From Candidatus Latescibacterota bacterium (lineage in GTDB: Bacteria > JAAXHH01 > JABIQT01), in assembly GCA_018667995.1 (NCBI GenBank), contig JABIQT010000721.1, positions 1 to 6,092 of the forward strand: a stretch of 6,092 nucleotides of DNA, read 5' to 3'. Position 1 is the first letter of the stretch; every line of letters starts with the position of its first letter. The notes under the pieces were generated by a model. That model saw nothing but the letters and a program-made list of their open reading frames with translations, was not told the DNA's origin and did no database searches. Positions 237 through 5,902 of this stretch are shown here, piece by piece. Position numbers and translations under genes: made by a program.

Positions 237-668
237 CTATCCGGCTTTGATCTCGATCTCCCTGGGTTTGGCTTCCTCGGCCTTTAGCAAGGTGATCGTC
301 AGTATACCGTCTTTGTAATCGGCTGTTATTCGCTCCGAGTCCACAACTGACGGGAAGTTAAACGATCTTTCGAATGCGCCGTAAGACCGTTCGACTCGGT
401 AGTAGTTCTTATCTTCCTGCTTCTCTTCGTGGTTCTTATGGCCGTACAACGTGAGGACGTTGTTCTGCATATTAATCTTGACGTCTTCGGCCGTCACTCC
501 GGGTAGCTCCGCCTTGATGATAAAGGCATCGGGCGTTTCCGCAACATCGACCATGGGAGCCCAGGATTCTGTGCGTGTGCCCGTCTGGAATTCGCCCAGC
601 ATATTGTCGAAAATTCGGTTTAGATCATGCTGTAGTGAATTGAATGGGCGCGTGGTCAGGTGTGTCAT
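237..668 (-). CDS. Small heat-shock protein, Hsp20/alpha-crystallin family
   Basis: This 143-residue protein is an ATP-independent holdase chaperone of the cytoplasm. Members bind unfolding proteins as large oligomers and pass them to ATP-dependent chaperones. The N-terminal arm (about 1-36, with RPFNSLQHDLNRIFDNML) matches the usual amphipathic sHSP leader. The alpha-crystallin domain spans about 37-130, starting at WAPMVDVAET and including the ELPGV segment (54-58). It ends with the family signature ADYKDGILTITL (116-127). The C-terminal I-x-I anchor that docks neighbouring dimers is present as IEI (138-140). The length is typical. The frame stays open upstream to an ATG at 752, but I chose the ATG at 666-668. 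It follows AGGAG (676-680) with 7-nt spacing and begins right at the conserved N-terminal arm, while the upstream ATG has no Shine-Dalgarno site and would add 28 unconserved residues. The gene is monocistronic, with a terminator directly downstream and a possible sigma-54 promoter upstream. Confidence 0.95.
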   Translation of the reverse strand: MTHLTTRPFNSLQHDLNRIFDNMLGEFQTGTRTESWAPMVDVAETPDAFIIKAELPGVTAEDVKINMQNNVLTLYGHKNHEEKQEDKNYYRVERSYGAFERSFNFPSVVDSERITADYKDGILTITLLKAEEAKPREIEIKAG

Positions 669-675
669 CTTAATT

Positions 676-680
676 CTCCT
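676..680 (-). promoter_or_regulatory. Shine-Dalgarno site of hsp20 (decides the start)
   Basis: The minus-strand sequence AGGAG lies 7 nt before the ATG at 668. No comparable site precedes the alternative in-frame ATG at 752, so this motif fixes the start of the 143-residue form. Confidence 0.85.
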
Positions 681-693
681 CTCACTTCGCTCT

Positions 694-711
694 GCCCGCA
701 TCGCAGCGGGC
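694..711 (-). promoter_or_regulatory. Hairpin in the hsp20 leader just upstream of the ribosome binding site
   Basis: GCCCGC (706-711 as read on the minus strand) and GCGGGC (694-699) form a perfect 6-bp GC stem with a 6-nt loop, ending 13 nt before the AGGAG motif. Leader hairpins near the ribosome binding site are common in bacterial small heat-shock genes, where some act as RNA thermometers (ROSE and fourU types). I do not see a canonical ROSE or fourU motif, and this stem does not itself cover the Shine-Dalgarno bases. A thermosensor role is therefore speculative; the hairpin itself is clear. Confidence 0.4.
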
Positions 712-737
712 GGTAATTTGATGTTCCGGTCTGAGCT

Positions 738-753
738 GATGCTGGTTGGCATC
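738..753 (-). promoter_or_regulatory. Second small hairpin in the hsp20 leader
   Basis: GATGC and GCATC form a perfect 5-bp stem around a 6-nt loop. If transcription starts near 785, as the promoter-like sequence suggests, this element lies inside the untranslated leader, upstream of the hairpin at 694-711. It also overlaps the alternative ATG at 752, which would lie in the stem. It is short and could be chance. Confidence 0.25.
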
Positions 754-965: not shown

Positions 966-993
966 TTGACAGGTCATTCCGATTGGCTATATT
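966..993 (+). promoter_or_regulatory. Near-consensus sigma-70 promoter for the nucleotidase-like gene
   Basis: A perfect -35 box TTGACA (966-971) is separated by 16 bp from TATATT (988-993), a -10 box one base from TATAAT. Transcription should begin near 1000, giving a leader of about 65 nt to the GTG at 1065 or about 134 nt to the ATG at 1134. It is the best housekeeping-type promoter in the window and suggests constitutive expression of the downstream gene. Confidence 0.7.
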
Positions 994-1064: not shown

Positions 1065-3362
1065 GTGCCTTCCACTATCCCTTCGCAGCCCAACGCCTGG
1101 TCCCGCCCACTCAGACTGTGGTTTGAAAGTCCTATGGTATTCTTCATAGGTTTTCTTGCTCTAGAAGTTGTCTCCTGCTTCCTCACTCCTACAGAAGCCA
1201 TTGCCCAGTCCATACCCGCATCATCGTTTCAAGACACTCTAACCCTTACCATTTTTCACAGCAATGACGTCAATGGCGTGTTGGATCGACAAAGGTCTCG
1301 CGCTGGATTCACGGGCGGTATGGCCCCGCGCGCTCAGATAATGGAGCATGCCCGAGCTAACGGCCCTGTACTTGCCTTCGATGCCGGGAACGCGCTTGGT
1401 CCCGCACCACTTTCGACCTGGGATCAAGGTGCGTCCATGATCGATGCCATGCAGTTTGCGGGGTATACGGCGATGTTGCCGTCTAATCACGAATTTGACT
1501 ATGGCATCGACGTGCTTAGGCGGCACAATGTCCGATCCCGAATACCTTTCTTGGGGACTAATCTCTCATACAGCGATGGGGGTGATCTGTTCACCAAGTC
1601 CCTGCTTATTGACGTCGAAGGGGCACAAGTTGGGATTATTGGTCTTCTCTCGCCTGCGATCGTAACCCTCACGAATCCCAGGAACTTTGGCGGCATCGAT
1701 ATCCTGGAACCGATCAGGGCGGCCACGGAGGAGATCAGCAGGCTCGAGGTGGCAGGGGCGGATTATATCATTGTTCTCACCAACATGCAGGAGGATGAGA
1801 CACTCAACCTGGCCAGGCAGGCTAAGGGCGTTCACCTGGTAATTGCCGGTGGCTACCGAAATGTCGGTAGAGCGGAAATGTTGCCGGGGTTGATTCGTCT
1901 GGTGAACGGTACGCAGATCGTAACTACCCCCGGTGCGGGTTCCTTACTCGGGGAAGTCACCGCCCGTCTTGTCCGGCGCGCAGATGGCAGCTACAAACAC
2001 CTGCGTTCTTCCGCTGCGCTTCGAACCATTGACAAGACTGTTCGGGACCATAGGCAGGTGGCCACCGTGGTGGAAAATGCCGTAGAGCGTTATGTGACCG
2101 CTGCAGGTGATACACTCGGGACCATTGCGGGAGGAACTCATTACGACCAGACGCACATGGTAGCCGACATGATACGTGATTACACCGATGCGGAGGTCGG
2201 AATCCTCAATTTTGGTGTCATACAACCACTTGCGACGGATCAAGCTCTGATACGTCGGGATATCAGTCGATTCATTCGCTTCCCCAATACCATACAGCTT
2301 ATCAATTTAAGCGGTTCTCAGCTACGCTCCATCGCGGCTCAGAGTAGTCGATCTACCAGAAATAGTGCCCGACTGGCTTTTTCCGGTTTGGATGCCACCA
2401 CTATGCGAGTTGAAGGACGACAGCTCATTGAATCAGAGGATTACCTGGTCTCAATCACTGATTTCCTTGCGAACGGTGGGGACGGGTATACCCAGTTTGT
2501 AGACAGCCCAGTTCAAATGGAATTGGGCAAACCGCTGAGGACGTTGCTTCAGGAGACTTTGTTGGAGCGAGGTCGCCTGGACGCCCATGGATTGGATCGG
2601 ATACGTCGCAGAGGAGTCTGGCACTCGGGCCTACAGTTGGAAGGGGCCTTTGAGCGTAACTATGTGGACCGGACCACCGAGGAGCTTCGCTCCCAAAACG
2701 AGCAGGTACCGTTCTTGAGTGGAGCCACGACCGTGGCCTGGAGCGGTGCCTTGCGATACTTTCTGGAGCGGCAGAGCGGGCCGCATTTGATGCGATATCA
2801 ACAACGTATGGAGTTCAGTCAAATCGGAAGATCATTCGACGATCTTACGCCCTCCAAGGACCAGGTCGAACTAGAGGCGCGATACCGGTATCGGACATCG
2901 GGAAATCGGGGCGATCCATTCGTCTCAATGGGTCTAAATACAGCCTTTACCAACGGTGCCAGTCAACGCCCTGTGCAACAGGTCAGCACGGTTGGTTTTG
3001 AATACCAGCTGTCTCAGAATCTCATAGCTCGTGTGGCGGGAAGAAGTCAACGTGATTTTGTGGCGAATAAGACGGATCTGGGTGGTGAGCTAACCATGGA
3101 ATGGCGCAGGGCCCTACCTTCGAAGGTGGATTTACAGTCCCGGGTTCGGAGCTTCTTTGGTGTGACTAACAGGAGGGTGATTTCCGTGGAGAACTACAAT
3201 ACCATCAGTCTGCCACTTCTCGGCGATCTGCGTCTCAATGTGAGGCAGAATAACTTCCTGTATCGCGTCAATCAGATTGGTGGCGTGGCCACCAATGGAG
3301 TGGCCTTTCGGTCGATTCTGACACTAGGATTCGCCTATGGTCTGAACTGGAAGTGGTTGTAA
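1065..3362 (+). CDS. Exported UshA/5'-nucleotidase-like protein with degenerate metal site and C-terminal beta-barrel-like domain
   Basis: The predicted protein has 765 residues from the GTG at 1065. An ATG at 1134 (Met24) is an alternative; neither start has a good Shine-Dalgarno site. A signal peptide covers about 14-47: Arg14/Arg17, a hydrophobic core, then a likely cut after AIA (45-47). A lipobox-like VVSC (35-38) is a less likely alternative. Residues about 59-320 match the metallophosphatase domain of UshA/5'-nucleotidases (HSNDVNG 65-71, DAGN 106-109, NHEFDYG 141-147). Residues about 350-480 match the 5'-nucleotidase C domain, with FLANGGDGY at 467-475. Of seven usual metal ligands only Asp68 and Asn141 remain. 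The others are Asn70 (His), Asn109 (Asp), Asn240 (His), Tyr264 and Asn266 (GHxH). The expected NxGGIR reads NFGVIQ (382-387). Residues about 518-765 form roughly twelve amphipathic segments ending in NWKWL, like an outer-membrane barrel. The frame is intact, so this looks like a maintained pseudoenzyme; its function is unknown. Confidence 0.85.
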   Translation: MPSTIPSQPNAWSRPLRLWFESPMVFFIGFLALEVVSCFLTPTEAIAQSIPASSFQDTLTLTIFHSNDVNGVLDRQRSRAGFTGGMAPRAQIMEHARANGPVLAFDAGNALGPAPLSTWDQGASMIDAMQFAGYTAMLPSNHEFDYGIDVLRRHNVRSRIPFLGTNLSYSDGGDLFTKSLLIDVEGAQVGIIGLLSPAIVTLTNPRNFGGIDILEPIRAATEEISRLEVAGADYIIVLTNMQEDETLNLARQAKGVHLVIAGGYRNVGRAEMLPGLIRLVNGTQIVTTPGAGSLLGEVTARLVRRADGSYKHLRSSAALRTIDKTVRDHRQVATVVENAVERYVTAAGDTLGTIAGGTHYDQTHMVADMIRDYTDAEVGILNFGVIQPLATDQALIRRDISRFIRFPNTIQLINLSGSQLRSIAAQSSRSTRNSARLAFSGLDATTMRVEGRQLIESEDYLVSITDFLANGGDGYTQFVDSPVQMELGKPLRTLLQETLLERGRLDAHGLDRIRRRGVWHSGLQLEGAFERNYVDRTTEELRSQNEQVPFLSGATTVAWSGALRYFLERQSGPHLMRYQQRMEFSQIGRSFDDLTPSKDQVELEARYRYRTSGNRGDPFVSMGLNTAFTNGASQRPVQQVSTVGFEYQLSQNLIARVAGRSQRDFVANKTDLGGELTMEWRRALPSKVDLQSRVRSFFGVTNRRVISVENYNTISLPLLGDLRLNVRQNNFLYRVNQIGGVATNGVAFRSILTLGFAYGLNWKWL

Positions 3363-3472: not shown

Positions 3473-4813
3473 CTACAGTCCTTTTAAAATCACATTGTTT
3501 GCACGAAACCCCCCAGCAGCCAATGTTTCAGCCACGGTACGGCTCTCGTCGTAGTAGTCGCCGCCACCGGGGTATTCTCGACTTCCGTCAAAGTAGGCAA
3601 CGGCAGGAAATCGATTGGAAGGTATTGAGTTGGCGCCCCGTGGCTGTTCCACGCTCGGAACATTGCAGCTGCCGCCTGCCTCAAGAAAGGGGGTCACCTC
3701 GAAGGTGTTGCCCCCATCTCCCGACAGCAACCAGATCACGCATTCGTCGTCTCGCTCCCGCATGCGCATGGCCCGGCTAGGTTTTCCGTCAATCCACTCG
3801 TGATTAAACGGTGTCAGCGTCACCAGTGCGCAAATCATGTCGTCTTCGCGAATGGATGTCTTGCAGTCCACTGCCCGCATATGGGGGTAGTGCGATTCCC
3901 AGTAATGATTGACGGGGGTTTTGTGCAGGCTTCCATTTTCCCCCCGGCTCACCATCACGCAATGACCCGATGCCACGCTGTGGTCAAAGTAAAAGGCAAA
4001 GGGCGAACCGCTGGAGTCGACGACGAGTCCTCCATTCCTGATATCTGGTTGCGGCAGCTTTTCCTGGCGTGGATTCGTATTACGGGACAGTATATCAAGA
4101 TCTTCCGGTCGGGCGCGAGGTGGCACTGGTGTTCCGTCGGCGCGTTTCCACGTGAAGCCCCTATCATCACTGAACGTGTAACACGTGGCTTGATGCACTC
4201 CCCGGCTGACCTCGTTCTCACCTTCAAAGAAATCTATGATGGCATGCAGCTCACCGTTCGGTGCCACATCCATTTGCAGATGGAAGGCCGCATAGGCCTC
4301 ACCGTACTCGTCCGCAAGCTGGACGATGCGATAGGGAGCCGACCACTCCCCACCGGGATCGAGCCGAAACAGATCAACGCCCCGGTCGCTACGTTCAGCT
4401 CCCTGTCCGCGCATGGCCAGATACAGGGTTCCATCGGGACCGCTTAGAAAGACCGGGTAGGTTCCCACCCCTACGGGGCGTGGTGTGGTCCACTCCGAGC
4501 TGTCATTAGGTCTCACACTTCTGCACCATTGGACATTTGTTGCGTGACCGCCAAGTATGGCGTGCAGAAATCCATCAGGATCCATGGCCAGAACAGACCT
4601 TGCATGGTTGTCAACTCCCGTATTGAGCGTCACGGGTTCGCTCCACTGTCCAGTAGTGTGGTCAAGCGTGCGCACACGGTTGAAGTATCCCTCCCGGCTG
4701 ACATCCTGCCAAGAAACATGGGTTCTGTCTTGGAAGGAGATTATCTTACCACTATCGCTGGTCGCACGTTCGCTGCCTTGTTCTGAGATGATATGCATGC
4801 TGTTATTTTCCAT
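3473..4813 (-). CDS. BNR_4-type beta-propeller protein (sialidase/lyase-like fold)
   Basis: This 446-residue protein resembles the BNR_4 repeat family, made of beta-propellers related to sialidases. The family includes polysaccharide lyases such as some ulvan lyases, and many members of unknown role. Two Asp-boxes are visible, SDDRGFTW (215-222) and SGDGGNTF (364-371). Typical blade motifs include DNHARSVLAMDPDGFLHAILGGH (broken here as DNHARSVLAMDPDG, 68-81, then FLHAILGGH, 82-90) and TYPVFLSGPDGTLYLAMRG (118-136). His70, His90 and His310 sit in the blade positions where such families often place functional residues, but I cannot assign catalysis. No signal peptide or membrane segment is seen from either start, so the protein appears cytoplasmic, unlike most secreted lyases. 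Neither the ATG at 4813 nor the in-frame ATG at 4798 has a strong Shine-Dalgarno site; GGAAA precedes the latter at loose spacing. It lies downstream of the PhyH gene on the same strand (234-nt gap) and probably acts with it. Substrate unknown. Confidence 0.8.
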   Translation of the reverse strand: MENNSMHIISEQGSERATSDSGKIISFQDRTHVSWQDVSREGYFNRVRTLDHTTGQWSEPVTLNTGVDNHARSVLAMDPDGFLHAILGGHATNVQWCRSVRPNDSSEWTTPRPVGVGTYPVFLSGPDGTLYLAMRGQGAERSDRGVDLFRLDPGGEWSAPYRIVQLADEYGEAYAAFHLQMDVAPNGELHAIIDFFEGENEVSRGVHQATCYTFSDDRGFTWKRADGTPVPPRARPEDLDILSRNTNPRQEKLPQPDIRNGGLVVDSSGSPFAFYFDHSVASGHCVMVSRGENGSLHKTPVNHYWESHYPHMRAVDCKTSIREDDMICALVTLTPFNHEWIDGKPSRAMRMRERDDECVIWLLSGDGGNTFEVTPFLEAGGSCNVPSVEQPRGANSIPSNRFPAVAYFDGSREYPGGGDYYDESRTVAETLAAGGFRANNVILKGL

Positions 4814-5047: not shown

Positions 5048-5902
5048 CTATAGTTCTGCACTCATATGTGTCAGATACTCCTCTGAGTCCCAACCGGGAT
5101 ACTGCTCCTCGAGCAGCGATAGTGTCTGGGCCGTGTAATAGTGGTGTCCCGGAGGCGGGAAACGCCATATTTCACGCTGAGCGGCTGACAATCCACCTAT
5201 GAACTCCTGGAATATCGGGGTGCTCTTTCCCAGGTGTGTGTAGTGTTTGAAACCCTCCCAATAATGATCGGCCCGGCCAAAACTATATGCCCACGTATAT
5301 CGCTGCCCGTCTGCCCGCGTGTACGCGCTGGCACTATGATACGTGAAGTTGGTGAAGATACAGAGCGTACCAGCTTTGCATACCAATGGCACACATTTCG
5401 TCATGTCTCTACCATGTTTGCGGGGTATGAGTCGCAGTGGTGCCTGGTCCATGTCCACATCTTCAAGGTGTACCCAAAACACCATCTGTCCAAATTCACG
5501 ATATGTTTCGGAGATCGGCAGTAGCGAATTATTGCCGTTATCTATATGTAGTCCGGTATCGTCAAATTCTGTGCCGCCACCGGTGTGTCCAGGATACCTG
5601 GCAATCATACATCCGACGCGCATATGGATCTCGTGCGTCTTAAGCCACTTGCGAGCAAAAGCTATACTCTCTTCATCCATGGTGGCCTTGTAGAGATCCA
5701 TTTCTTCGTGGGGAAAGCAGGGAACGTAACTATTGCCGCTCTGATCCTGAGGAGGATTTGTCCTGATTTCCTCCCAAGGGGGCAAGACACGGCGCTGGGC
5801 TGCTTGCAGTGTGGTCAGCAAATCACCAGATATAAAATCCGGTACGATGGTGAATCCGTTCAGATCCAGTTCTTCGAGATTCTTGTCTGTTAGTCGCCGC
5901 AT
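5048..5902 (-). CDS. PhyH-family (phytanoyl-CoA dioxygenase-like) Fe(II)/2-oxoglutarate dioxygenase
   Basis: The 284-residue protein matches the PhyH superfamily. These non-heme iron enzymes couple oxidative decarboxylation of 2-oxoglutarate to hydroxylation or related oxidation of an organic substrate. The N-terminus (LDLNGFTIVPDFIS, 12-25) is the usual start of the fold. The iron-binding facial triad is visible as His119-x-Asp121 (in LHIDNGNN) and the distal His189 (in NFTYHSAS). Arg201, twelve residues after His189, is the expected 2-oxoglutarate carboxylate ligand. The core strand FWVHLEDVDMDQAPLRLIP (142-160) is the characteristic segment before the distal histidine. All cofactor residues are present, so it should be active; the substrate cannot be read from sequence. 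No signal peptide: cytoplasmic. The ATG at 5902 is preceded by GGAG at 6-nt spacing. It is the first gene of a possible two-gene unit with the BNR_4 protein. The family name does not imply phytanoyl-CoA as substrate; bacterial members act on very varied compounds. Confidence 0.9.
   Translation of the reverse strand: MRRLTDKNLEELDLNGFTIVPDFISGDLLTTLQAAQRRVLPPWEEIRTNPPQDQSGNSYVPCFPHEEMDLYKATMDEESIAFARKWLKTHEIHMRVGCMIARYPGHTGGGTEFDDTGLHIDNGNNSLLPISETYREFGQMVFWVHLEDVDMDQAPLRLIPRKHGRDMTKCVPLVCKAGTLCIFTNFTYHSASAYTRADGQRYTWAYSFGRADHYWEGFKHYTHLGKSTPIFQEFIGGLSAAQREIWRFPPPGHHYYTAQTLSLLEEQYPGWDSEEYLTHMSAEL

Follow-up and report, generated by a model that had tools for sequence, protein, structure and literature searches.

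A barrel-fused UshA-like protein depleted of its dimetal ligands: a candidate pseudo-5'-nucleotidase family in two bacterial phyla

The window, meaning the whole 6,092-nucleotide stretch of DNA analysed here, carries on its forward strand an intact reading frame for an UshA-like protein with a probable C-terminal barrel, and on its reverse strand three genes that are ordinary members of their families. The features are as follows.

237-752, reverse strand: HSP20 chaperone, an ordinary family member (Pfam)
966..993, forward strand: sigma-70-like promoter match, TTGACA-16-TATATT (11/12 positions)
1065..3362, forward strand: candidate pseudo-5'-nucleotidase/barrel ORF, 765 codons/765 aa, GTG start, frame intact
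1134..1208, forward strand: probable signal peptide, residues 24-48 (MVFFIGFLALEVVSCFLTPTEAIAQ), by eye from the sequence; N-termini of relatives are similarly hydrophobic
1236..2051, forward strand: UshA-like metallophosphatase-fold domain, residues about 58-329 (AlphaFold pLDDT mostly >90; VIA-align)
1266..1268, forward strand: Asp68 (UshA D41), kept in all barrel-fused homologues with residues there
1272..1274, forward strand: Asn70 replacing His (UshA H43), from alignment and codon AAT
1389..1391, forward strand: Asn109 replacing the bridging Asp (UshA D84), from alignment and codon AAC
1485..1499, forward strand: Asn141-His142-Glu143-Phe144-Asp145 (UshA N116, H117, D120), ligand Asn and Asp-His dyad retained
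1782..1784, forward strand: Asn240 replacing His (UshA H217), from alignment and codon AAC
1851..1862, forward strand: GYRN (263-266) at the position of the GHxH motif, register ambiguous by one residue
2112..2594, forward strand: 5'-nucleotidase C-terminal domain, residues about 350-510 (Pfam match 365-479; PF02872, E 1.1e-12)
2628..3359, forward strand: probable outer-membrane beta-barrel, C-terminal, residues 522-765 (DUF481 in relatives; low-confidence strand prediction)
3473-4813, reverse strand: BNR_4 family protein, an ordinary family member (Pfam)
5048-5902, reverse strand: PhyH dioxygenase family protein, an ordinary family member (Pfam)

The reading frame, residues and codons given in the initial annotation were recovered when the sequence was re-read: D68 is encoded by GAC, N70 by AAT, N109 by AAC, N141 by AAT, H142 by CAC and D145 by GAC, and in the second half of the site N240 is AAC, Y264 is TAC and N266 is AAT. 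An alternative start at ATG 1134, where the family profile begins, would give a product of 742 aa. Two arguments attached to the gene carry less weight than had been proposed. The near-consensus promoter does match at 11 of 12 positions, but it is weak evidence because the region contains five such matches where chance alone would give 2.3. Each replacement codon does lie one base from a codon for the expected residue, but this is a trivial property of the genetic code and no evidence, since any AAY codon can be reached from CAY or GAY, and TAY from CAY, by a single change.

The conserved metal constellation of 5'-nucleotidases comprises two Asp and three His residues together with one Asn (PMC11708047), and what defines the enzyme family catalytically is its dimetal site (PMC11708047, PMC8475336). 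We aligned the window protein with a copy of UshA and with PDB sequences, and with these references N70, N109, N141 and N240 fell opposite UshA H43, D84, N116 and H217. The window motifs HSNDVN, DAGN, SNHEFD, LTNM and AGGYRN thus stand against HTNDHH, GGD, GNHEFD, THM and GGHSQ. Five of the seven dimetal ligands are replaced, as first claimed, and only Asp68 and Asn141 are left, while His142 and Asp145 of NHEFD are kept and the catalytic Asp-His dyad is present. In the GHxH region nearly the whole family has one extra residue (LVIAGGYRN against LIxGGHsH); L012 has the usual length among the members compared. The equivalents of UshA H252/H254 consequently depend on gap placement, being Y264/N266, as originally assigned, in the gapped alignment but G263/R265 in the ungapped one. 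The count of five lost ligands stands because neither is a metal-binding pair. No substitute Asp or His was present at the replaced positions in the aligned columns of the sequence alignment. The H43 position is a weak marker by itself, because many non-fused homologues (alphaproteobacteria) have Tyr there with every other ligand in place. D84 and H217, on the other hand, were replaced in none of a panel of 79 non-fused homologues, and the replacements are therefore not a matter of chance; for N116 and H117 this panel is biased, since NHE belonged to the search pattern. The loss of the metal site in the window protein is well supported.

Pfam recognised the 5_nucleotid_C domain but did not detect PF00149 (Metallophos) in the window protein because its active-site motifs have diverged, and the protein scores below every NCBIfam cut-off. 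AlphaFold, run on an alignment of 42 sequences, placed residues 58-510 mostly above pLDDT 90 and the remainder low. Foldseek and VIA-align grouped this predicted model with c4898, UshA and CD73 (Z 35-39); with both domains taken together over about 450 residues, VIA-align gave Z 39.1 for c4898 (3ivd), 36.9 for UshA (1ho5) and 36.5 for CD73. The two-domain architecture of UshA is intact in the predicted structure. With these type I 5'-nucleotidases (PF00149 plus PF02872) the window protein has in common the two-domain fold of about 450 residues, the export signal, the NHE-Asp dyad, the aromatic base clamp and the GGDGY motif. It differs from them in having lost five of the seven ligands and the Arg loop, and in its additional C-terminal barrel.

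The substrate pocket has changed on one side. We take the relevant UshA residues to be the phosphate-side Arg residues R375, R379 and R410 on the one hand and the base-stacking pair F429/F498 on the other. The loop that carries R375 and R379 is absent in all 32 barrel-fused homologues, the window protein included, and R410 corresponds to Gln387 in the window. The loss of this loop does not alone imply loss of activity, because two non-fused Latescibacterota nucleotidases (L143, L145) also lack it and yet keep the full set of metal ligands. The stacking pair, which is conserved in 5'-nucleotidases (PMC11708047), is represented in the window by Phe406 and Phe467. Aromatic residues occupy both positions in 22 of the 32 barrel-fused homologues, the window protein among them; both are lost in the genus g3 and partly lost in L137/L138, and outside these groups conservation is complete (22/22). 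Judged from the alignment, the phosphate side of the pocket is lost throughout the family and the base side is mostly kept.

A second divergent exported UshA-like protein occurs in the window's genome. It belongs with the UshA-like (seleno)protein NF041198, a known selenoprotein family (PMC13188914), and unlike the window protein these proteins carry a CxU motif and lack a barrel; the copies seen here also have a multihaem region at the C-terminus. The window protein reaches 81.9 bits against NF041198, where the cut-off is 275. Four genomes of the window's phylum have copies in which CxU-PGNPFGGLP contains an in-frame TGA and a CxxCH region follows at the C-terminus (L179, at G000:C361:4000-11500, L180, L181 and L182), and that of L180 passes the cut-off with 289 bits.

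Of the 16 genomes of the window's phylum, 13 have full-length barrel-fused homologues, as do about 20 of the 64 in the Latescibacterota phylum, that of L039. In the window's phylum, PF02872 occurs in this protein family only. A contig search with the single window protein found no relative, and a search with the family alignment yielded, apart from non-fused enzymes, a single barrel-fused relative (L039, Latescibacterota). The orthologues that show 44-46% identity are of full length. In a tree built without the ligand columns, the 32 barrel-fused sequences formed one clade against non-fused 5'-nucleotidases (SH-aLRT 100); several branches are long, that of the window included (0.63), and the inner order is uncertain. 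The Latescibacterota phylum also has separate non-fused proteins of about 475 aa, some with full ligands, such as L143 and L145. Among its non-fused UshA-like proteins of this length, L142, L144, L147, L148 and L149 have GNGEF (in longer form GNGEFYM) and GGDSHT/GGDTHT in common (H117 to Gly, H252 to Asp), a further kind of conserved change in the active site.

The full ligand set is missing in 32 of 32 barrel-fused homologues. Position D41 is kept in every one with data, and H43 is His in L139 only. Seventeen retain D84 and 15 have a replacement there (14 Asn, 1 Ser), with at least four changes on the tree, and H217 is replaced in 11 of the 32, with at least three; these parsimony counts give the number of changes and not their direction, and we read the changes as losses because every non-fused relative keeps D84 and H217. 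N116 is replaced in genus g3, L137 and L139, the equivalent of His142 (H117) is kept in 29 of 32, and L012 retains H217 and H252. The main Latescibacterota clades retain D41, D84, N116, H117 and H217. The loss is thus graded: relatives keep D84, N116 and H217, and the window protein, genus g3 and L139 have lost more in parallel, the window and g3 being separate endpoints. The initial annotation had asked for homologues with the same replacements. Ligand loss is indeed a property of the family, but which ligands are gone differs by lineage. Barrel-fused orthologues with canonical ligands were not seen in either phylum, and a lone degenerate allele is ruled out, since every barrel-fused homologue in the two phyla has lost ligands.

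Selection was assessed within five close clades of relatives, where Nei-Gojobori dN/dS had medians of 0.18-0.28 (range 0.15-0.45). The suggested comparison across orthologues thus shows purifying selection in related clades, but the window branch lies outside this measurement, its nearest relative being about 45% identical. None of the seven ligand columns varies within the S-type and L-type clades, replacements included, which adds little because 80-85% of all columns are invariant there; in genus g3, four of the seven ligand columns are invariant against 53% of all columns. One could suppose that the window gene is undergoing relaxed decay and is losing its function while the reading frame is still unbroken, and its long branch and lack of close relatives for measuring selection would fit this. 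We consider it very improbable, since the 765-codon frame is intact and the C-terminal barrel conserved, orthologues of 44-46% identity are full-length, and all relatives, which evolve under purifying selection, have lost these sites too. The earlier view that this is not simple decay but a selected pseudoenzyme is supported by the intact predicted fold, the family-wide loss and the purifying selection in relatives. The best reading is a maintained non-enzyme family and not a broken gene.

The protein might still be an enzyme, or at least a metalloprotein, whose metal site is reduced, mononuclear or unusual; Asp68, Asn141 and the amide oxygens of the replaced Asn residues could, for example, hold Ca2+ or a single transition metal. 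All members retain Asp68 and 29 of 32 have His142, Asn accounts for four of the five replacements in the window, and the main Latescibacterota clade keeps D41, D84, N116, H217 and H117, enough for one metal. However, the window protein retains only two of the seven ligands, genus g3 has lost N116 too and keeps D41 alone, and the Arg loop is absent as well, so that we regard this alternative as unlikely. Nucleotide hydrolysis by the window protein is most likely absent, as far as its residues can tell.

The C-terminal part of about 245 residues resembles an outer-membrane beta-barrel of the DUF481 type, which is a putative 12-strand outer-membrane family (TC 1.B.75, PMC4827864). When the barrels of 17 family members were compared with Pfam, DUF481 was matched in 11 (best E 1.9e-6), DUF3078 in five, and OMP_b-brl and PagL once each. 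The barrel of the window protein itself gave no DUF481 match, and its best Pfam match was OprF (E 0.08). A low-confidence model of the barrel alone from two sequences (pLDDT 41) showed about eleven long strands in succession. No solved structure was matched in a PDB sequence search with the barrel profile (residues 522-765), and a barrel-only profile gave only weak, partial matches to short ORFs in nine genomes of other phyla and 245 of one further phylum. DUF481 proteins average 277 aa in a published survey (PMC4827864), too short for an added UshA part, whereas here the barrel is a C-terminal fusion. In two genus-g3 genomes we also observed 310-aa ORFs with an apparent signal peptide and the same barrel but without the UshA domain (L183:6962-7894, L184:7335-8276).

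The window protein would be exported and its barrel seated in the outer membrane. Most likely the UshA part would hang from that membrane into the periplasm, because the barrel is C-terminal and the soluble part N-terminal, as in POTRA-barrel proteins. The order of signal peptide, soluble domain and C-terminal barrel is also that of a classical autotransporter, in which case the UshA part would be a passenger exposed on the cell surface and not periplasmic. This arrangement seems improbable to us, as none of the 17 family members has an autotransporter match in Pfam and the closest barrel families are DUF481 and DUF3078.

None of the window neighbours HSP20, BNR_4 and PhyH suggests a functional link, and there is no NTT gene beside the pseudo-nucleotidase among the genes of the window. 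In the relative G001, an NTT-HEAT-cNMP gene (PF03219) starts 86 bp downstream of the pseudo-nucleotidase on the same strand, and at seven Latescibacterota loci a gene of the NTT family (the ATP/ADP-transporter family) lies directly downstream, the ORFs overlapping at several of these loci. Identity between the two NTT types is about 22%. An NTT neighbour is not required, because G014 and genus g3 carry the pseudo-nucleotidase and have no NTT genes. NTT genes (PF03219, with HEAT repeats) were also observed directly downstream of apparently exported metallophosphatases of two other types, at G000:C791, G000:C192, G001:C34 and G015:C8 (L186, L187, L191, L189); G000 is the window's own genome and G015, like G001, a relative. 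Among the NTT loci with a readable upstream gene, five of seven follow an apparently exported metallophosphatase, G001:C31 being counted and some pairs being orthologous. Such adjacency should be rare by chance, because G000 has 15 PF00149 matches. NTT-HEAT and NTT-HEAT-cNBD fusions are known, with function described as unknown (PMC5381601). In genus g3 a large protein is encoded just upstream of the pseudo-nucleotidase (L153, L154, L155), and at L155, where it is 1353 aa long, it has matches to leucine-rich repeat and Big_2 families.

On balance, we think that the window protein is probably a maintained pseudo-5'-nucleotidase tethered to the outer membrane: an exported UshA fold that has lost its dimetal centre and Arg loop, carries a C-terminal barrel, and would bind rather than hydrolyse. 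A binding role is favoured because the phosphate side of the pocket is lost and the base side mostly kept. The UshA part may be a binding module, either for a nucleoside or base through the Phe406/Phe467 clamp or for a partner protein, and it might assist nucleotide or nucleoside uptake. Base binding cannot be the role of the whole family, because g3 has lost both aromatics and L137/L138 have lost them in part. The gene neighbourhoods allow a more specific proposal, which we put forward as speculative and rather unlikely as it stands: an outer-membrane capture protein for nucleosides or nucleotides, made of a non-hydrolysing 5'-nucleotidase on its own beta-barrel and working with an NTT-family inner-membrane transporter, in bacteria that repeatedly pair NTT genes with exported metallophosphatases.

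Inactive members of the metallophosphatase fold are already known as a kind of pseudoenzyme. Vps29 keeps the fold with catalysis lost or unused. Vps29 and Dpb2 are eukaryotic intracellular docking subunits, whereas the window protein is bacterial, exported and two-domain, and sits on a putative outer-membrane barrel. Dpb2 of Pol epsilon likewise keeps the fold, with catalysis lost or unused (PMC7308368), and the window protein resembles both in this. In the open-access PMC literature searched, no match was found for a pseudo-5'-nucleotidase, an inactive UshA or related phosphatases, and no pseudoenzyme of the UshA/CD73 family. By analogy with docking subunits such as Dpb2 (PMC7308368), the UshA part could be just a structural spacer for the barrel or a scaffold on which proteins dock, and bind no small molecule. 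In genus g3 the domain is still under purifying selection although it has neither metal site nor aromatic clamp, and the barrel-only ORFs of two g3 genomes also speak for such a role. The conservation of both aromatics in 22 of 22 members outside g3 and L137/L138, however, goes beyond what a spacer needs, and a scaffold without ligand is to us a possible but doubtful account of the family. We retain the binding module tethered to the outer membrane as the preferred reading.

Features beyond those initially described are the outer-membrane-type barrel at the C-terminus, the missing Arg loop, the graded parallel losses in two phyla and the NTT neighbour that recurs in relatives. A specialist would be surprised that a barrel-fused protein has shed a textbook dimetal site stepwise and across its whole family. 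UshA/CD73-type 5'-nucleotidases are well studied, and the family described here, with members in two phyla, has lost its dimetal site in steps, with several parallel endpoints. The family is a natural series for the order in which a dimetal enzyme loses its ligands and for the use made of the leftover fold. An automatic '5'-nucleotidase' label would wrongly credit the window's phylum with nucleotide scavenging by hydrolysis, and such mis-annotation matters there because this family holds the only PF02872 proteins found in it. Furthermore, that NTT genes repeatedly stand next to those of exported metallophosphatases offers a testable lead to the role of the NTT-HEAT proteins.
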